In this document: piece after piece, positions 104 through 8,451 of the stretch
Position numbering within the stretch: the stretch's first letter is position 1
Layout: each line of letters opens with the position of its first letter
NCBI GenBank assembly: GCA_900169975.1
Contig: LT827117.1
Coordinates: 1-64,000, forward strand
DNA: 64,000 nt
Source: Pseudoflavonifractor sp. Marseille-P3106
Lineage (GTDB): Bacteria; Bacillota; Clostridia; Oscillospirales; Oscillospiraceae
Direction: 5' to 3'
The notes under the pieces: model-generated
The model's database searches: none
What the model saw: only the letters and a program-made list of their open reading frames with translations
Told to the model about the DNA's origin: nothing
Translations under genes and position numbers: made by a program

Positions 104-262
104 CTAATTAGCCATAAGCTGCTTGATCCCCTGGCTTTTGGAGGCAGGGTTGTCCTGGCCGTAACCTTCCAGAAGGTTGATGCCGCCCCATACGCACAGG
201 CCGCCGCCCAGAGCGATGACCAAAGTCTGCAAAACGTCGATAGCGTTAGTAAAAAAGCTCAT
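104..262 (-). CDS. Maff2-family small membrane protein, apparently C-terminally truncated
   Basis: The 52-residue product begins MSFFTNAIDVLQTL, has a glycine-rich hydrophobic segment at about residues 12 to 30 and then NLLEGYGQDNPASKSQGIKQLM. This is the start of the Maff2 family, found beside TraG in clostridial conjugative elements. As I recall the family, a second hydrophobic segment follows the QLM motif; here the frame stops two residues later (Ala-Asn-stop), so it looks shortened. The ATG lies 2 bases after the coupling-protein stop codon with an AAGGAA ribosome-binding site inside that gene, so the two are translated together. Its role in transfer is not established. Confidence 0.7.
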   Translation of the reverse strand: MSFFTNAIDVLQTLVIALGGGLCVWGGINLLEGYGQDNPASKSQGIKQLMAN

Positions 263-264
263 AT

Positions 265-1368
265 TCACAGTTCCTTTCGTTCGTTTGAATTGTCGGGTTG
301 AAGGTCGGTGGCTCTCAATTCGTACAGATCGAAAGGCTCATCCGGCTTCACGATGGCCGGTCTGCGTTTCATGTACCGTTCAATGTCAAAGGTGTTTTTC
401 TTGTCGGCGTCGGCAAGGTACTTGTAGCGGGGATGCTTCGTTATATCAAACTTGTCGCTGAAAAACGGCCGCACCCCTCGAAGCTGCAAAATACACTTGC
501 CTCCGTCCATTACCGCGATCTCGTCCTGGGTCATCAGCTCCTTTCCTAATTTCTGATAGTTGAGGCCGTGAGAAACCTGGCTGCCCCGGTTCTCGGATTG
601 ATTGAAGCTGTCGATGGTCTCCTTGCCCAGTAGCTCCGAGATCTCTTTCAGGGTGGATTTCTCCTTGCCTCCCAAAAACAAGGTGGTGTCGCAGTTGCCC
701 ACAATGGTATCTGCGGCGTCCTTGTAGATGGTCTTTAACTGACTTTGGGACTGCAAAATAATAGAAGCCGAGATTTCCCGGCTCCGGATGGTGGCGATCA
801 GCTTGTCGAAGTTGGGTATCTGCCCGATATTGGCGAACTCGTCCAGGAGGCACCGTACATGGACGGGCAGCCTGCCGCCGTACACATCGTCTGCCTTGTC
901 ACAAAGAAGATTGAATAGCTGACTTTGCAGCATGGCGATGACGAAATTGAAGGTGGTGTCCGTGTCGCTCATAATGAGGAACAGCGCCGTTTTCCGGTCG
1001 CCCAGGGTATCCAGCTCCAGTTCATCGTCGGACATGATCTCCCGCAGCTCCGCAATATCGAAGGGGGCAAGGCGGGCACCGCAGCTAATCAAGATGGATT
1101 TCAGGGTCTTGCCGGCGGCCAGCTTGAATTTGCGGTACTGCTTCACGGCGAAGTGGTCCGGGTGCTCCTTTTCCAGCTTGGAGAACAGAATATCCACGGG
1201 TGACTGAAATTCCTCGTCGTCCTCTCTGGCCTCGGATGCGTTGATGAGCTCCAGCAGCGTGAGGAAGTTCTTTTCCTCCGGCTCCGCCTCGTACCAGATG
1301 TACCCGATCAGGGCGCAGTACAAAAGCCGCTCGGCCTTGACCCAGAAATCGTCCCCGGCCTTACCCTC
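265..1368 (-). CDS. traG: VirD4/TraG coupling protein, exon 3 (C-terminal 367 residues)
   Basis: This is the 3' exon of a type IV secretion coupling protein, the inner-membrane ATPase that brings relaxosome DNA to the conjugation channel. The segment starts EGKAGDDFWVKAERLLY and continues through the AAA+ domain, including LLDEFANIGQIPNFDKLI (Walker-B-like DE) and an ILQSQSQLKTIY segment, to a stop at 265. The reading frame also runs upstream from the exon border into intron RNA, but those 17 codons are intronic. With exon 1 (6371 to 7066) and exon 2 (3930 to 3989) it gives a 619-residue protein, close to the usual family length. Expression depends on removal of both group II introns. Confidence 0.85.
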   Translation of the reverse strand, partial: EGKAGDDFWVKAERLLYCALIGYIWYEAEPEEKNFLTLLELINASEAREDDEEFQSPVDILFSKLEKEHPDHFAVKQYRKFKLAAGKTLKSILISCGARLAPFDIAELREIMSDDELELDTLGDRKTALFLIMSDTDTTFNFVIAMLQSQLFNLLCDKADDVYGGRLPVHVRCLLDEFANIGQIPNFDKLIATIRSREISASIILQSQSQLKTIYKDAADTIVGNCDTTLFLGGKEKSTLKEISELLGKETIDSFNQSENRGSQVSHGLNYQKLGKELMTQDEIAVMDGGKCILQLRGVRPFFSDKFDITKHPRYKYLADADKKNTFDIERYMKRRPAIVKPDEPFDLYELRATDLQPDNSNERKEL

Positions 1369-3929
1369 GTAGAGTAGGAATGAGCCGCCTTGCGGCATTA
1401 CTGCCGTAGGTTTGCCCAAACCCCTCCCAGAACCGGACGTACACCTCTCGATGTATCCGGCTCGCCATTATTGCTTCAAATCAGTGTCGTTCAAGGGTGG
1501 TGAATCTTGTGATGACAGTCCTTGCACACCGCAAGTGTTTTTCGCTTTTTCGCTATCATCGCAAGCTCCCACAGTTGTTTTCCTTTGAGGTTCTTCACCT
1601 TATTTACATGGTGTATTTCCAGCGGTACATTGGTTTTTCCGCACAGCTCACACACACGGGCGGACAGCCTGTCGTCAAATGACGTTCTGGAACCGACGTG
1701 TGCAATTGCAAAGTCTATGATTTTGTCTGTCCAGAGGTCTATATTTTTGCAGTCCATAAACCTTGCAAAACTGCGGCGTTTTATGCCTGTTTTCGTTTGG
1801 TATGGCACACCCCAGCCGCCTTTTCCGTCTCGGTATTTGCGCATCATTTTTCTGCTGGTGCTTTCATGCTTTCCAGCCAGAGTTTTCAGGCAGCTGTATT
1901 CCATCAAATATTCAAAATACTGAAGCTTGTTGAAGTTGCTGGCTATGCTGTAATAGTTGCAAATACCGCGCAGCTCAGAGTTGTACGTTGAAACAATCTC
2001 CAAGTCCGTACACCGAAAGATATATTTTCTTGCGGTAGGCTCTATTGTCCCGTCGCGTAGTTGCCGAATGACCGACTTCCCAAACAGGAAAGGCATGATT
2101 TTGTCCGCAAACGGAATGCACAGCTCAACAGACCCGTTGAGCGTGCGGGAAACGTGGTTTCCGTGCGGCTTTAGCTTCTGGTCTCTCCTCACACGGATGT
2201 CATAACCCAAAAATCTTGCATACTGGTTACTGTGCGTAATGAGTGTCTTTTGCTCTGAAAGCTCCATTTTCAGGGTTTGGCTGATGAAGTCGGACAGCTG
2301 TCTCTTGATACGCTCACAGTCCGCTTTATCGCCCTTCACGCCAAGAATGAAGTCGTCAGCATAACGGATGTATTTGATGACTTTATCCGTTTTGGACATA
2401 CAGGGCGTTTTATGCATGACTGCTTTTAGTTGAGCGATTTTCTGCAACAAAGCTGTTTTTTCCTGACCTGTTGCAGTTTTCAGCTGTTTTTGAGCCTTTT
2501 TTATCTGCCATGTGACCTTATCGTATTCCGGGGTATGGTGTCTGTCCCTGCTTTTATAGAACTCCTTGGCGGTCTTTTCCACGAACTTGTCCAGCTCATT
2601 CAGGTAGATATTTGCGAGTATGGGCGAAACGATTCCGCCCTGCGGGCAGCCGGAGTAGGTAGCATGGTATTGCCAGTCCTCCATATAACCGGCTTTTAGG
2701 AATTTCCAAATGAGCTGAATCAGCCGTGCGTCTTTAATCTTGGCGTTTATGACGTTTGCTAAAACTCGGTGGTCGATGTTATCAAAACAGCCCTTAATAT
2801 CGCCCTCAATAAACCACGACACGCCTGAGAATTCTCTTTTCAAGGATTTCAGCGCAGTGTGGCAGCTCCTGTTGGGACGAAAGCCGTGAGAATTGTTTGA
2901 GAAGATTGGCTCGTAGACCGATTCCAATATCATTCTCAATACCTCCTGCACCAGCTTGTCCGTAAAGGTAGGAATTCCAAGAGGACGCTTTTTCGTGCTG
3001 TTTTGCTTTTTCTGGATGTACTCGCGGCGAACGGGCTTCGGCGTATAGGTTCCGTCAGCCAGAGATTGGATGATCCGGTCAACTTTTTCCTTGCTGAATC
3101 CGTCAGCCGTGTCGTCATTCACGCCTTTTGTTCCTGCGCCCTTGTTGGCGTAGAGGTTTTTGTACGCAAGATAATACAGGTCGGGTCTTAATAGATAGCG
3201 GTAGAGCCTTGTGAAGATTTCCTCTTTGTTGTCCCTTGAATTTTTTCTGATTCTATCCAAAATCTCGATTGTTGGTTGCATTTGAGGCTTTCCTCCCGAA
3301 TCAAATTTCAATTCTGGAATGCAATAACTGTTCTCCTTCGTCTGGAATACAGGATATATTCCGTGAGAGTCGTTACTTCCCACAGGACTACTATGAGAAC
3401 TCCGTTGCCGTATCGGATATTCAGCGTCATCTCCCTTGCCTTTCGAGGGCTTGGGATTTATCACCCACAGGGGGCATTTCGCATAGCTCGTTTGAGCATT
3501 CCGACTTAGGCAATCCCCAGTTAGCGTAATAAGTAGGCAAATGCGGATTGTCGGATACGCTTTCGTTTCGTTATTTCCAGTTCTCTGGCTTGTCACATGA
3601 ATGGATTGATAACCCATTGCGCAAAGGCGAAACGCAATGTTATTCATGTCAGAGGTTGATGCCACCGTATCTACGGTGGTTACATACACATTCCTCCGCC
3701 CGAACACAACGGGGACTTGAAACTCGCATTCAACATTCAGTAGTTCTATCCTCATATCCGCTTAACGTAGCAATTCAGTCGTGCTCTTGTGTATAGAGCA
3801 ACTTATCGCTTTCCCGCCATGCTATGGTCCCGCATCAGCTTTCGCCTATCGGTTAGGCGGGTCGTTTCCACTGTTATCTGAGTGGGTAGTGCCTGATTCT
3901 ACTTCTTACTACGCCCTATCTGGGCGCGC
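1369..3929 (-). mobile_element. Group II intron 2 (downstream intron in traG)
   Basis: The 5' end reads GCGCGCCCAGATAGGGCG, matching the start of lactococcal Ll.LtrB as I recall it except for two paired T-to-C changes. Domain V lies at 1430 to 1463: a 34-base hairpin starting GAGCCG with a GAGA-type loop and ending CGGTTC. Domain VI follows, and the 3' end is ...CCTACTCTAC at 1369. Joining 3930 to 1368 gives Lys-Gly|Glu-Gly-Lys in phase 0, the expected TraG sequence. The intron-encoded protein is at 1491 to 3281; the 650 bases before it form the 5' ribozyme domains. Borders are inferred from protein continuity and motifs, not from RNA. Confidence 0.9.
1491..3281 (-). CDS. ltrA: Group II intron-encoded reverse transcriptase/maturase with HNH endonuclease (LtrA-like)
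   Basis: The 596-residue protein begins MQPTIEILDRIRKNS. It has the RT fingers/palm (RPLGIPTFTDKLVQEVLR, SHGFRPNRSCHTAL), the catalytic YADD in IRYADDFILG, a maturase X domain, and a C-terminal HNH domain with CELCG, IHHVNK and CKDCHHKIHH zinc/active-site motifs. It would help fold and splice its intron and drive retrohoming by target-primed reverse transcription. I chose ATG 3281 because GGGAGG lies 10 bases upstream; the frame stays open to 3755, but that extension is ribozyme sequence without family similarity. The stop is just before domain V, as usual. Confidence 0.92.
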   Translation of the reverse strand: MQPTIEILDRIRKNSRDNKEEIFTRLYRYLLRPDLYYLAYKNLYANKGAGTKGVNDDTADGFSKEKVDRIIQSLADGTYTPKPVRREYIQKKQNSTKKRPLGIPTFTDKLVQEVLRMILESVYEPIFSNNSHGFRPNRSCHTALKSLKREFSGVSWFIEGDIKGCFDNIDHRVLANVINAKIKDARLIQLIWKFLKAGYMEDWQYHATYSGCPQGGIVSPILANIYLNELDKFVEKTAKEFYKSRDRHHTPEYDKVTWQIKKAQKQLKTATGQEKTALLQKIAQLKAVMHKTPCMSKTDKVIKYIRYADDFILGVKGDKADCERIKRQLSDFISQTLKMELSEQKTLITHSNQYARFLGYDIRVRRDQKLKPHGNHVSRTLNGSVELCIPFADKIMPFLFGKSVIRQLRDGTIEPTARKYIFRCTDLEIVSTYNSELRGICNYYSIASNFNKLQYFEYLMEYSCLKTLAGKHESTSRKMMRKYRDGKGGWGVPYQTKTGIKRRSFARFMDCKNIDLWTDKIIDFAIAHVGSRTSFDDRLSARVCELCGKTNVPLEIHHVNKVKNLKGKQLWELAMIAKKRKTLAVCKDCHHKIHHP

Positions 3930-3989
3930 GCCTTTTGTGTTGGAAATGAGAGCGTCCACAAATTTAAGGATGTCGGCCTCGTTGCGGAT
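3930..3989 (-). CDS. traG: VirD4/TraG coupling protein, exon 2 (20-codon internal exon)
   Basis: These 60 bases encode IRNEADILKFVDALISNTKG, the conserved segment that normally links NPFAY to the EDFWVKAERLLY region of TraG-type coupling proteins. The exon is bounded on the 5' side by intron 1 (3' end CTTACCCGAC) and on the 3' side by intron 2 (5' end GCGCGCCC). It is exactly 20 codons and both borders fall between codons. A stand-alone minus-strand frame spans it, but that frame mostly reads intron domains V and VI and is not a separate gene. Confidence 0.85.
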
Positions 3990-6370
3990 GTCGGGTAAGA
4001 GACTGGCATTACTGCCAGCCCCTCCCCTAAGAACCGTACGTGACAGTTTCCCGTCATACGGCTCAAGCCTATCGTAAGGCCTCGTGTAAAACGAAACCCG
4101 GCTCAAATCAAGTAGTTTGGCTCATGCAGATTTCGATGACACCAGGGATGTACCATAATAGCGGGCCATTTCCTGTTGTTTTCGGTGTTAAAATGCGTCT
4201 TGAATCCTGTTTCGGATGTAATTCTTTCTCCGCATACAGGACAACACCGTTTCTGGTTGTTCCAGATTTTAACGAGTTTTTCCCGTCCTTTGGTACTGTT
4301 CAGCATTCTTTCTCCGTCACGTTCCTCATAATATCCCGTCCATTTTTCATCGAATGGGTTAGCTTCGGCGGCGATTTTCCTGAATCGGATGATTTTAGTA
4401 TTTGCCGCGTATTCCAGCTTAAGGTATTTTTCATCGAAATCTTTACCGCGGAAAGCAGGCTCTGTTGCAAACGTCCACGTTCGGTTATCAATATGGTGCC
4501 AGTATTTGTTGGCAATCCATTTCCTACCTTTTCGCTTGTGTCTGCGGCAAGCCCACCTCCATAGGCACTCGAAAATCCTGTGGTCAACCAATCCAAAAAT
4601 ATCCGCAGAAACTACATAGCGATGGTAGTTGACCCAACCACGAATGACAGGATTTAACTTGCGAATGAGCAAGTCCTGTGTGGCTGTTTTGTTCTCCCTA
4701 ACGATAGTCCGCACTTTTTTGAGGAAGGATTTTATCGCATTCTTTGACGGCTTAATGAGCAATTTTCCGTTGTATTTCCGAACGTTCTGCCCAAGAAAAT
4801 TAAAACCGTCGCTGATATGTGTGATTACCGTTTTTTCCTCGGAGAGTTGCAGGCCGCGTTCCGCCAGAAAGTCCTTGATGAGCGGCATAACCTCGTTACG
4901 TAGAGTTTCCGGGCTTTTTCCGGTAACGATAAAGTCGTCGGCATATCGCACGAAGTTAATCTGGTCGTAAACAGTTTTACCTGCCACCGTCCGTCTCATA
5001 GGGAATCTTTCTTTTAGAATCCGCTCCAGACCGTCTAAGGTCATGTTCATCAAGACTGGCGATATTGTGCCGCCCTGTGGGGTTCCTTCCTCTGTTGGAA
5101 AGAGCTTTTTGGTCTCCACAAAGCCACATTTCAGCCACTTTTCGAGCATTTCCTTGTCCATTGGGATATTTTTCATTAACCAGCTATGGCTGATATGGTC
5201 AAAGCACCCTTTAATATCTCCCTCCAAAATCCATTGAGGGGAACCGGCTCTGCACAAATCGTTAAAGCATTGCCCGATAGCGTCGTGTGTGCTTCTTCCA
5301 ATTCTAAAACCGTAGGAGTTCGGGTCTGCTAGAGTTTCTGCCAATGGTTCCAATGCAAACTTATATAATGTCTGCATGGCGCGGTCTGTCATCGTCGGAA
5401 TACTCAGCGGGCGTAATTTTCCGTTTTTCTTCGGGATGTACACCCGTCTGAGAGGTTGGGGCTTATAGCCCCGGCGTTTGAGTTTTTCAATCGCCTCGAA
5501 TTTGCCCTTTGGCGTTTTCCATAATTCATGGTCTACACCAGCAGTGTTTTTGCCTTTATTACTTGTCACACGCTTTACCGCCAATGCCTTGGCATAGAAA
5601 GAGTGCGTCAACAGCCATTGCAGGGTTTTCACCTTGTTGTAATGACCGTCTTTTTGAGCCTTTACGATACGCATTTGCAGCTTTTTAACATAGGCCTCCG
5701 CCTTCTTCCAATCAATGGATTCCCAGCTTTGTGCCCTGTCAGCAGGCGCACACAGTTTCCTGTTCATTTGCAATTCCTCCTCTCAAAAGTTCTGTAAATT
5801 CTCTCGTAAAGATAGACCTGCTGGAAGTCAGCCCGCTTTCGCGTGGAATACTGTTTCAATCCCTATCCGTCCTCATTACAAGGCCGGCATTCGCTTTTTC
5901 CAGCGTTCCTTACCCGCGTTTCTATCGGCTTTCCTTGCGGTCAGCTTTCCGAATATACGGAGAGAGCGCGGGCTTACCACGTTTCACGTAATCAACCGTG
6001 TAGGTTAGGTGCCGCCTATCCGCCGGCAGTCTTGTCTGTCCATGTGTTCCCAGCTTACAGGGGAACATCCGACTGCACACCTTTTGGTTCAGGCTTATCA
6101 GCAACTTTAGCCTGGTTCCCACTAACGACGTTTATTAGCGATTTACCTACATTCACCATACTACACAAGCCAAGCTCCCCAGCCGGATGTTGCTTCCAGC
6201 TTTTCGCCTCTGCCTCACGGCTTCGGCTTGACCCTTTCGGGAGGGCTACCTTTTCTCGTCATGCTGCCTCACGACCGTTGCCAGCCGCTTCGGTGACGAT
6301 AGGCTACTGTTAATGGAATAACAGGTTCGGTCAATGCCGAACAGTTTAATTACGCGACCTCGTGTCGCGC
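3990..6370 (-). mobile_element. Group II intron 1 (upstream intron in traG)
   Basis: The 5' end reads GCGCGACACGAGGTCGCG immediately after the NPFAY codons. Domain V is at 4031 to 4064, a canonical 34-base hairpin (GAGCCG...GGAAAC...CGGTTC). Domain VI follows and the 3' end is CTTACCCGAC at 3990. The 2381-base element encodes its own RT (4103 to 5767), with about 600 bases of 5' ribozyme before it. The RT differs strongly from that of intron 2, so these are separate acquisitions rather than a duplication. Boundaries are inferred from exon continuity and domain V/VI. Confidence 0.9.
4103..5767 (-). CDS. ltrA: Group II intron-encoded reverse transcriptase/maturase with HNH endonuclease
   Basis: The 554-residue protein starts MNRKLCAPADRAQSWESIDW. 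It shows RT motifs (LRPLSIPTMTDRAMQ, SYGFRIGRSTHDAI, VRYADDFIVTG with catalytic YADD), a maturase X region (LNPVIRGWVNYHR) and a C-terminal HNH zinc domain (CPVCGERI, HPWCHRNLH). It belongs to another RT lineage than the protein of intron 2. The chosen ATG has GAGGAGG 8 bases upstream; a TTG two codons earlier is too close to that site. It should act as splicing maturase and retrohoming enzyme for intron 1. Confidence 0.92.
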   Translation of the reverse strand: MNRKLCAPADRAQSWESIDWKKAEAYVKKLQMRIVKAQKDGHYNKVKTLQWLLTHSFYAKALAVKRVTSNKGKNTAGVDHELWKTPKGKFEAIEKLKRRGYKPQPLRRVYIPKKNGKLRPLSIPTMTDRAMQTLYKFALEPLAETLADPNSYGFRIGRSTHDAIGQCFNDLCRAGSPQWILEGDIKGCFDHISHSWLMKNIPMDKEMLEKWLKCGFVETKKLFPTEEGTPQGGTISPVLMNMTLDGLERILKERFPMRRTVAGKTVYDQINFVRYADDFIVTGKSPETLRNEVMPLIKDFLAERGLQLSEEKTVITHISDGFNFLGQNVRKYNGKLLIKPSKNAIKSFLKKVRTIVRENKTATQDLLIRKLNPVIRGWVNYHRYVVSADIFGLVDHRIFECLWRWACRRHKRKGRKWIANKYWHHIDNRTWTFATEPAFRGKDFDEKYLKLEYAANTKIIRFRKIAAEANPFDEKWTGYYEERDGERMLNSTKGREKLVKIWNNQKRCCPVCGERITSETGFKTHFNTENNRKWPAIMVHPWCHRNLHEPNYLI

Positions 6371-7066
6371 ATAGGCGAAGGGGTTGTATTTCATGCTCTT
6401 TTTGAAGTTGATGGTGTTGAGAACCTTGATGCGGTACGGCTCATAGATGACCTTCCCGTGGGCATCCCGCATGGGCTTTCCGTTCTCGTCTAGCTTGGGG
6501 GCGCCCCGCCGCAGCATGGTCCCCACCTCGGACAAAAGCTGTCCTTTGGGATCGGTGACCACATAGGAACTGTGCATCTGCATGAGGGAGGGCTTGACGA
6601 AGAACCGGGTCTTGCCGCTGCCGCTGCCGCCGATGACCAGGATGTTTTTGTTCCGGGCGTACTTGGGATTTTTCGGGCGGCTGGACATGGTGAGTTTTTC
6701 CGTCTGGGTCAGAGGGATGTTCCAGTCGGGGATCGGATCGACATAGGGGGCAATATCGGCCGCCGTGCCCCATCGGGCGCTGCCGTACTCAATGCCCTTG
6801 CGATATTTGCGGGCGTTTTTCCCTTTGGCATACACCACCAGCCGGACGATGACCGCCCCGGCGATGCCCACCAGCAGGTCCAGCGGATGCAGGCTAGGCA
6901 GCCCAGAAGAAAACGCCTCCGTAAAGCCCTGGCTCAAATGCAGGAACTTTTCAGAGGTGTCAAGGCCGGGCGCAAGGCGCACCGTCTGGCAGAGCTTATC
7001 AAAGAGATATACGAACAGCAGATACGGGAGGTTGGGGAGTAGTTTCTTTTTCCAGTCAACCATCAT
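6371..7066 (-). CDS. traG: VirD4/TraG coupling protein, exon 1 (N-terminal 232 residues)
   Basis: This is the 5' exon of the conjugative coupling protein. Two N-terminal membrane segments (about residues 10 to 26 and 60 to 80) are followed by the ATP-binding loop GGSGSGKTRFF (about residue 150) and a VVTDPKGQLL motif, ending at NPFAY before intron 1. The unspliced frame adds ARHEVA and stops. The start overlaps the upstream pcfB stop codon by 4 bases (ATGA), so translation is coupled. Without splicing, only this truncated membrane-anchored fragment could be made. Confidence 0.88.
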
Positions 7067-7551
7067 AATTCCACACCCCGGTCTTTGGTTTTGACTTTCT
7101 CCCGCTGGCGGTGCTGGGCTTTGGCCTGCTGCTTTGCCTGGTCCAGCTCTTTGCGGATGGAGGGCTTTTTCTCTTTCTCCAGGTTCTTTGCGGAGAACTC
7201 CCGGAAGGCCGCCGTAATGACATCGGCATCCCGCCCCTTGAAGAACACCAGATAGCGGGGTATCTCTCCGCTGGTGTCCTTTTTCAGCGCGAAGTCAATG
7301 CCGTACTTCTTGGCGGTGGCGGAAAAGGCCCGGATGTTCTGGTCGGTGATTTCGATGTTGGAAACGCCGGTGTTGTGCTTCATAAGCTGTCGGAGGGTCT
7401 GCTTGCCGTGGTGCAGTTTAGTCTTGTGGCCGGTCACTCCTTTCTGCATCTCGTCCAGCACTTTTTTCATGGCCTGTTGCAGCATCCCGGCGGAGAGCTT
7501 TGTAGCCTCCACGCAGAGGGCAACGGTGCGCTGGGTGACTTCTTCCTGCAT
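7063..7551 (-). CDS. pcfB: PcfB family conjugation accessory protein
   Basis: The 162-residue product (MQEEVTQRTVALCVEATKLS...) matches the PcfB/DUF3801 family encoded next to coupling proteins in Gram-positive conjugative elements. Recognisable family sequence includes LVFFKGRDADVITAAFREF in the second half, followed by a lysine/glutamine-rich C-terminal tail. In pCF10, PcfF and PcfG form the relaxosome and PcfB is an associated processing factor. The gene lies between the replication-initiator-like gene (6-base gap) and the coupling protein (4-base overlap) in one minus-strand operon. Confidence 0.8.
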   Translation of the reverse strand: MQEEVTQRTVALCVEATKLSAGMLQQAMKKVLDEMQKGVTGHKTKLHHGKQTLRQLMKHNTGVSNIEITDQNIRAFSATAKKYGIDFALKKDTSGEIPRYLVFFKGRDADVITAAFREFSAKNLEKEKKPSIRKELDQAKQQAKAQHRQREKVKTKDRGVEL

Positions 7552-7557
7552 GAGTGA

Positions 7558-8451
7558 TTACCTCCTTTCTCCGCTGCCGTACAGGTCGTGGTTCACCAGG
7601 GACGCATAGTAGCTGTCGATGGTGGCCGGGGCGTTATACAGGGCAGCCAGCAGATATTTCTTGATGTTGCGGACATAGGTGGTGTTCTCCCGCATGCGGT
7701 CCAGCACATACTCGATGTGAGAACTGTTCAGCTTCAGGAACCGGGATTTGACCACCTCCGCCGGATAGTCGTCCCCGGCAATGCGGATCGTCTCCCTGCG
7801 GGAACAGACGGTATCCACCATGAGCTCCACCAGCTCGTCCAGACGGTCACGGTCCATGCGCTCGTTCTGTACGAGGATGTTATACTCAATGTTCTCCAAA
7901 ATCAGTTCCCGATAGTTCTCTCGCTCCCGCATCCAGTCCCCTCCGGTCCGTTTGGCTCGTGCGGGGGTTTGGGTGCTTGATTGGATAGGATTTGATCCTT
8001 CCGTACTTGGTGAATCAGTATTTTGTTCTTCAGGATTTCTTTTCTCTTTATTTAATTGCGGCCGGTTTTCCAGACATGGGTTATCCATATCCGGGTTTTC
8101 CGTATCTGGACAAGCCGTATCCGGCTCGTCCTCACACGGCTGGCCCGTGTCCGGAGGATGGGGCGTCTCGTAGATGACATACTCCACATCCACAATCTTG
8201 CCCTTGCTATCCCGCAGCCGATTGCGAACTATGTACCCGGCCCGTTCCAGCTCCTTTAGGGCGGAGCCAATGCTATCCGTACCCTCCTTGCAGATTTTTG
8301 CAAGGCCTCTGGTGGTGTAGTTCCAATCTTCTGGCAAGGACAGCATCATGGAGAGCAGCCCTTTGGATTTTAGGGACAGCCCCGCGTTGCGCAGGTGGTG
8401 GTTGGACATCACCGTGTAGTCACGGGTTTTCTCAATGCGAAATACCGCCAT
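7558..8451 (-). CDS. Replication-initiator-like protein with N-terminal HTH (DUF6017 type)
   Basis: The 297-residue product has an N-terminal winged-helix region (residues 1 to about 95: FRIEKTRDYTVMSNHHLRN, LSLKSKGLLSMMLSLP). A Pro/Asp/Asn-rich linker follows (about 100 to 170), then a C-terminal helical domain (about 175 to 290) of the DUF6017 kind. Proteins of this build are the RepA-like initiators of clostridial integrative elements and may support extrachromosomal replication after excision. It heads the rep-pcfB-traG-Maff2 gene row and starts with a GGAGGTGATACC site before ATG. The initiator role is inferred from family and context. Confidence 0.75.
   Translation of the reverse strand: MAVFRIEKTRDYTVMSNHHLRNAGLSLKSKGLLSMMLSLPEDWNYTTRGLAKICKEGTDSIGSALKELERAGYIVRNRLRDSKGKIVDVEYVIYETPHPPDTGQPCEDEPDTACPDTENPDMDNPCLENRPQLNKEKRNPEEQNTDSPSTEGSNPIQSSTQTPARAKRTGGDWMRERENYRELILENIEYNILVQNERMDRDRLDELVELMVDTVCSRRETIRIAGDDYPAEVVKSRFLKLNSSHIEYVLDRMRENTTYVRNIKKYLLAALYNAPATIDSYYASLVNHDLYGSGERR

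Follow-up and report, generated by a model that had tools for sequence, protein, structure and literature searches.

The traG gene at the left end of the window, which encodes a TraG/VirD4 coupling protein (Pfam T4SS-DNA_transf), was split by two full-length group II introns of 2381 nt (intron 1) and 2561 nt (intron 2) into in-phase exons of 232, 20, and 367 codons. Comparison with related genes showed that these exons are a mosaic of TraG lineages. On this evidence, we consider it probable that two mobile introns of different classes came to occupy conserved sites of traG and that the gene was reshuffled by recombination through the introns.

Anatomy of the split traG gene and its element

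The window, i.e., the whole stretch of DNA analyzed, comprised the first 64 kb of a 114-kb contig (C11) of a 3.1-Mb genome in 20 contigs. ICE genes were located on the minus strand at the left contig end in the order DUF6017 protein, DUF3801 protein, traG, and maff2, where the contig stopped, and chromosomal-looking genes appeared from ~11 kb on in a Pfam scan. The features were as follows.

104–262, minus strand: maff2, adjoining traG, with the contig end behind it (PF12750, 4.8e-28)
265–1368, minus strand: traG exon 3, 367 codons and stop, with LLDEFAN and the TraG-D_C domain (PF02534, 4.9e-39; PF12696, 6e-38)
1369–3929, minus strand: intron 2, 2561 nt, start GCGCG, end CTCTAC (RF00029, 57.3 bits)
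1369–1465, minus strand: domains V and VI of intron 2 (RF00029, 57.3 bits)
1491–3281, minus strand: LtrA-like maturase/reverse transcriptase of intron 2 with HNH, 596 aa (RVT_1, Intron_maturas2, AI2M-like_HNH)
3623–3628, minus strand: EBS1 of intron 2, GCCTTT, pairing 6/6 with IBS1 AAAGGC (39/42 pairs over seven introns; next column 27)
3703–3708, minus strand: EBS2 of intron 2, TGTGTT, pairing 6/6 with IBS2 AACACA (34/42 pairs over seven introns; next column 25)
3930–3989, minus strand: traG exon 2, 60 nt, 20 codons, IRNEADILKFVDALISNTKG (DNA matches to another TraG lineage)
3990–6370, minus strand: intron 1, 2381 nt, start GCGCG, end CCCGAC (Rfam RF02012, 95.9 bits; RF00029, 66.1 bits)
3990–4066, minus strand: domains V and VI of intron 1 (RF00029, 66.1 bits)
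4103–5773, minus strand: TeI4h-like maturase/reverse transcriptase ORF of intron 1 (RVT_N, RVT_1, GIIM)
6053–6058, minus strand: candidate EBS1 of intron 1, GTAAGC, pairing 5/6 with IBS1 GCCTAT (from alignment column pairing)
6371–7066, minus strand: traG exon 1, 232 codons, with Walker A GGSGSGKT (PF02534, 4.2e-8)
7063–8451, minus strand: ICE genes for the DUF3801 and DUF6017 proteins, upstream of traG (PF12687, 3e-39; PF19481, 1.9e-57)

The initial annotation had described a coupling-protein gene cut by two group II introns with a 20-codon exon between them, and the exon coordinates and the Pfam and Rfam matches bore this out. A search with Rfam covariance models, which it had suggested for confirming the intron domains, returned a group-II-D1D4-7 match in intron 1 at 6325–6175 (95.9 bits; gathering score 34) and Intron_gpII matches at 4066–3990 (66.1 bits) and 1465–1369 (57.3 bits; gathering score 40 each). 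The 3′ ends of both introns comprised domains V and VI and a terminal AC, which fits the AY rule. Its statement that the joined exons give a conserved TraG sequence without a gap held as well. Among 80 GTDB loci (the best 80 of at least 578, after a TraG search that kept E ≤ 1e-60), 79 read uninterruptedly across both sites, and the remaining locus (L073) begins at a contig edge within this stretch. The three exons of the window aligned with intact TraG in unchanged order, as judged by tblastn for exons 1 and 3 and by eye for exon 2, and the sole length difference at the sites was one codon in the head of exon 3, which was also absent from L024–L026 and L028–L040. Both the Walker A and the DEFAN motifs have roles in the coupling-protein ATPase; since the former lies in exon 1 and the latter in exon 3, no exon alone should give an active enzyme. 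The split gene thus supported the further claim that an intact coupling protein would require removal of both introns. A twintron (nested introns) was ruled out by the 60-nt coding exon between the introns.

The best solved relative of the intron 1 protein was 6me0, which we take to be the TeI4h maturase (E 3.9e-177 vs. 1.6e-43 for LtrA), with alignment over residues 14–551. We assigned intron 1 to the TeI4h type by this protein match; in class terms, it is presumably a TeI4h-like intron of the CL class. The intron 2 protein was a full-length relative of LtrA (5g2x; E 1.8e-247; residues 1–595 of 596), and its LtrA-type assignment likewise came from the protein match; we presume it to be an Ll.LtrB-like intron of the ML/IIA class. 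The two introns, initially termed unrelated, are therefore better described as different classes of one kind. An HNH domain had been ascribed to both proteins; it was confirmed by Pfam (PF21368) for intron 2 only, and in the intron 1 protein it was read by eye from a Cys/His motif and from the TeI4h alignment, which extends to residue 551 of 556, with no Pfam HNH match. Each intron was present in one copy in the genome.

Exon-binding sequences were placed at the alignment column that paired best with each related intron's own exon, and they differed between the two introns; exon skipping or cross-splicing from one intron to the other was considered and set aside. For intron 1, the EBS1 column gave 22 of 24 pairs across four close introns (next best, 17), the four having been chosen after the outcome with seven introns was seen; with all seven, three of them distant, no column was clear (best 26/42; GTAAGC column 25/42). 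GTAAGC is likely, though not certainly, the EBS1 of intron 1 as judged from this pairing, and the placement of its EBS2 is tentative. An earlier EBS1 candidate, ATAGGCG facing CGCCTAT, was rejected because the stretch is conserved in relatives with differing exons. The putative intron 1 EBS1 would pair 6/6 with GCTTAC, the exon 1 end of L146 and L148, compared with 5/6 for the present exon; GCTTAC or GCTTAT was found at the exon 1 end of 8 of 110 TraG loci counted.

The traG-bearing ICE may be a Tn1549-like member of the Tn5252 superfamily, a type in which traG adjoins maff2 and the same element encodes VirB4 and a relaxase. Four ICE genes, maff2, traG, and those for the DUF3801 and DUF6017 proteins, were found in the window, and those for VirB4 and a MobQ relaxase on contig C20, the join being putative. 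Both maff2 and traG are named as genes of such ICEs in the available part of PMC5357655. DNA 3′ of traG in a near relative (L041) matched the end of C20 at 88–91%. Close to the matched stretch were genes for a MobQ relaxase and a serine recombinase, and a CD1110-family VirB4 gene lay further inward. From these matches, the C20 end is likely the continuation of the ICE. At this end (L225, 8596–14300), the likely continuation behind maff2, lay the gene for the MobQ relaxase and that for the serine recombinase, which has DUF4368. Their presence suggests that an IME lies within or close to maff2 and might account for the contig break behind that gene.

The genome (G000) gave nine PF02534 matches: two were the pieces of the split traG, and seven were other coupling-protein-like genes with open frames. 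One of the latter was 73% identical to the reference TraG among the matches listed, at most three candidates being scored per genome. A second intact traG within the element had been raised initially as a point against the interpretation; the putative C20 continuation contained no PF02534 match, but the seven open-frame TraG genes were present elsewhere in the genome, so that they may help in trans. Of the 50 ORFs listed for the window, 20 were scanned against Pfam, and no resistance family was named; among 20 proteins encoded at the C20 end, none exceeded the cut-off of a resistance model in NCBIfam. Both scans were of limited coverage. An MBL-fold hydrolase at the C20 end scored 47.1 bits vs. 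100 for the beta-lactamase core model.

Exon lineages and the start of both introns

To assign lineages, 23 genes were compared with the exons by best ungapped placement. Exon 1 showed 93% amino-acid identity to the intact TraG of L041 over reference residues 1–236 (the last few lying past the exon) and 93–95% DNA identity to L041–L044. Its last 60 nt were 93–98% identical to seven L041-type genes and 63–80% identical to other lineages; the value for L151, whose stretch lacks exon 1, was 48%. A different lineage was found for exon 2, which over its full 60 nt was 77–87% identical to nine L157-type genes, compared with 65–70% for the L041 type and 60–67% for the remaining seven. A genome search likewise gave 78–89% DNA matches to a TraG lineage other than the L041 type, and the exon 2 peptide was identical in L158 (DNA translated by eye). 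As exon 2 has just 60 nt, its donor could be placed to lineage level only.

In exon 3, nucleotides 1–39 (window 1330–1368) were closest to L146 and L148 (92%), followed by four genes of their kind (82–90%), L151 (77%), the L041 type (69–74%), and the L157 type (59–69%). This head was scored ungapped, and the extra codon of L041-type genes depresses their score there; that codon, absent from the window, is itself a lineage mark. Nucleotides 40–160 returned to the L041 type (94–98%; others ≤75%). The comparison thus showed a mosaic in which the exon 1 end and most of exon 3 are of one lineage, exon 2 of a second, and the exon 3 head of a third, the evidence for the latter two donors consisting of 60 and 39 nt, respectively. 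Judged from these short stretches, a single unsampled donor lineage could account for both exon 2 and the exon 3 head.

The first two lineage switches coincided with the introns, the exon lineage changing from one side of each intron to the other. By eye, the first switch fell between position −7 of exon 1 and positions +6 to +8 of exon 2, an interval of about a dozen exon nucleotides vs. 2381 intron nucleotides. Searches of 400 and 335 genomes, with the best two candidates scored in each, revealed no donor gene that carries both introns. L151 carried an 84% relative of intron 1 at the intron 1 site, but its TraG lineage differed from that of the exon 2 donor. Short conversion tracts also arise without introns.

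The intron ends had been described as matching, which was correct for the 3′ ends with their AC but not for the 5′ ends, where both introns began with GCGCG in place of GTGCG, with C instead of T at position 2 (window 6369 and 3928). In contrast, T occupied this position in 21 of 21 relatives with a placeable 5′ end: nine of nine of the intron 1 kind (L155, L166, L184, L214, L251, L254, L255, L262, and L256) and 12 of 12 of the intron 2 kind (L154, L152, L118, L156, L172, L167, L165/L170, L195/L209, L250, L252, L256, and L257). L195/L209 entered this count on a 40-nt resemblance alone; L153, with an unalignable start, and L192 and L204, with T at position 2 and no further support, were excluded. 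The count of zero in 21 corresponds to a 95% upper bound of 0.13, or 0.018 when squared, a post hoc figure from partly dependent relatives. A cause shared by both introns, such as a methylation site or a hairpin, was considered as a hypothetical one only. Matches to the C-start pattern in nine other genomes were attributed to chance since no intron or reverse transcriptase sequence lay behind any of them; a reversed control pattern gave 11 matches in the same 300 genomes as the 5′-end pattern search.

According to the available part of PMC4424553, 5′ GUGYG is the non-strict consensus of the vast majority of group II introns, and neither intron 1 nor intron 2 conforms to it. GCGCG-start introns are on record from annelid mitochondria, where they are termed degenerate (PMC8924214, available part). 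We filed both introns as group II because of their ribozyme domains and maturases, in line with this record. The C at position 2, set against T in all 21 placed relatives, may mean that splicing is weak or lost.

Intron relatives and other interruptions of TraG

Seven other TraG genes, perhaps eight, had a single intron each, and one further TraG had two, a count that is not an unbiased rate; the doubtful case, L171, has just 19 TraG residues after its intron. In the second two-intron gene, L166 (G368:C167), about 115 codons with PF02534/PF12696 separate the introns, and only the 3′ end of the first intron is on the contig. The genome of L166 also holds L151, a different TraG gene in which site 232 is occupied by a relative of intron 1. 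This 84% relative lies at a TraG site identical to that of intron 1, and the contig includes no more than its 3′ part. The second site of the L151 gene is free of introns, and the gene is interrupted further on by a resolvase-family gene.

The nearest full-length relative of intron 1 (L251, 74%) interrupts a SNF2-type helicase gene, and the flanking peptides of L254 and L255 resemble that of L251 by eye. For intron 2, the full-length relative (L250, 76%) resides in another coupling-protein gene after DTKG. The DNA of this site, ACCAAAGGC, resembles that of the NTKG site of the window, ACAAAAGGC, and EBS1 is GCCTTT in both introns. Further relatives of the intron 2 kind were found at other coupling-protein sites (L152, L179, and, without an Rfam scan, L186), in coupling-protein genes at reference residue 160 (L099 and L109), and perhaps in L171. 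Relatives were also seen in non-TraG genes, for example in the large methylase/helicase gene of L154. Intron 2 relatives of one genome (L165 and L170; G271) follow the peptide HIDKGHIHN by eye, which we take to resemble the relaxase histidine motif.

The initial annotation had called the double interruption rare. Searches of 400 and 335 genomes, partly overlapping sets in which the best two candidates per genome were scored, indeed recovered the complete two-intron block from no genome but its own; L166 and the recurrence of single TraG introns qualify this claim, and the arrangement is uncommon but not unique. Since introns occurred at several TraG sites, TraG appears to be a repeated target, in line with the Streptococcus suis report (PMC12479173, available part).

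TraG genes were also interrupted by other sequences. In several genomes, inserts of ~8–19 kb cut the gene at reference residue ~334–347:

L158 (G031:C17)
L151, from 3278 downward
G074:C6, 602511–622950
G128:C1, 2691972–2709444
G143:C204, 275–19761
G031:C77, 31133–41028

In L151, a resolvase-family gene begins at this insert, as in IMEs in traG (PMC5357655, available part). Breaks were also seen at reference residue ~96 (L043, L052, L065–L067, L074, L088, L103, and L113) and at ~171–174 (L077, L101, L102, and L111). No gene resembling the reverse transcriptase of either intron was found in the loci broken at residues ~96 or ~171–174, and these breaks are probably due to other mobile elements.

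Proposed origin of the arrangement and its implications

In the proposed scenario, EBS–IBS pairing would have directed each intron to its site through retrohoming or retrotransposition, as suggested by the pairing and by related introns at further conserved positions in conjugation genes. Production of the coupling protein would then involve transcription through both introns followed by two splicing events, each intron presumably using its own maturase, as is established for both classes. Homologous recombination with another ICE, also with an intron at that site, would have produced the mosaic, the intron sequence being the shared stretch; since the first two switches lie at introns, this is the likeliest route. 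In a more specific version, a tentative possibility that we hold with some doubt, one and the same intron at a common conserved site serves as a crossover bridge for exon swaps between coupling-protein genes too diverged to recombine well on their own. The window's traG would then be a case of exon shuffling at bacterial introns, and both introns would later have changed to a start with GC, which may attenuate splicing.

The order of events could also have been the reverse, with ordinary gene conversion among TraG genes generating the mosaic and the introns arriving later. Conversion partners abound because the host holds several TraG genes, and the pairing of intron 2 with exon 2 as it now stands is perfect. 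The narrow first switch interval, by far outweighed in length by the intron, and the better predicted pairing of intron 1 with the exon 1 end of another lineage argue against this order, which we regard as possible but rather unlikely. An assembly artefact could also have joined pieces of several ICEs, and the fragmentation of the genome and the end of the window's contig within the ICE might invite this suspicion; however, the exons are in frame, EBS1 and EBS2 of intron 2 both fit exon 2, and neither intron appears as a repeat, each being single-copy, which makes such an artefact highly improbable.

A further question is whether the gene still functions. The C at position 2, together with the imperfect intron 1 EBS1, could have stopped splicing and left a dead gene in an ICE that is immobile or borrows a coupling protein from another ICE of this genome. 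The deviation of both 5′ ends from all placed relatives fits such a loss, and the seven other coupling-protein genes would make help in trans possible. On the other hand, all exons and both maturase frames are open, domains V and VI of both introns score above the Rfam threshold, introns starting with GCGCG are on record, albeit as degenerate ones, and further damage would be expected to accumulate in a dead gene; we therefore consider its loss of function improbable. The initial annotation had suggested that the introns may have been selected as a brake, double splicing throttling TraG and conjugation to the benefit of host and element. This idea draws on Ll.LtrB, a relative of intron 2 that sits in the relaxase gene ltrB of pRS01, where it lowers relaxase expression and reduces pRS01 conjugation 3- to 4-fold (PMC6003770, available part). 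Nevertheless, there is no sign of the pair being kept, given that both sites are empty in nearly all of the GTDB loci compared and that the block was whole in a single genome of those searched, and parasitism of conserved sites accounts for the same facts. Selection for a brake is thus very improbable; under the preferred scenario of two mobile introns, parasitic introns would drag on transfer without any selection, which is plausible in view of the Ll.LtrB effect.

Known systems differ from the present one in several respects. Ll.LtrB starts with GUGCG. Intron 2, despite its LtrA-type protein, resides in another gene and target site, starts with GCGCG, and has a second intron 60 nt away. For ICEs of S. 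suis, introns in coupling-protein genes have already been published (2025). The available part of that account (PMC12479173) describes several intron families in conserved motifs of core conjugation genes of S. suis ICEs. Among the targets are the DEFAN motif of the coupling protein (PF02534), virB4, and a helicase that offers two integration sites; since three introns are reported for each of two ICEs, the account may refer to two introns within a single helicase gene. The introns of the window share the preference for a conserved conjugation gene, the coupling-protein gene included, but they occupy other coupling-protein sites, after NPFAY and NTKG, and their exons are mosaic (compared with PMC12479173, available part). 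No coupling-protein gene with a double interruption is described in that part of the account, and a literature search, mostly at abstract level, found no report of a coupling-protein gene with two introns.

More than one splicing event per bacterial transcript, as predicted here, has precedents in the multi-intron genes and the twintron of Trichodesmium (PMC4649490, available part) and in C.te.I1 of Clostridium tetani, where more than one splicing event shapes one transcript (PMC3919590, available part). In contrast to these, the introns of the window are placed side by side with a coding exon between them, and no alternative splice site was seen. Serine-integrase IMEs reside in traG, maff2, and snf2 of streptococcal ICEs and thus share conserved ICE genes as landing sites with the present introns, but IMEs cut the gene as DNA, whereas introns are removable from RNA (PMC5357655, available part).

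Two findings go further than the initial annotation, namely the changes of lineage at the introns and the GC start common to both introns. Conjugation genes that are annotated as broken can be intron-split, and the natural pair of GC-start introns makes splicing strength testable. Exon shuffling at introns has been proposed for eukaryotic genes, and group II introns are the kind from which spliceosomal introns are thought to descend. A bacterial gene that changes lineage at group II introns would make the idea of exon shuffling testable.
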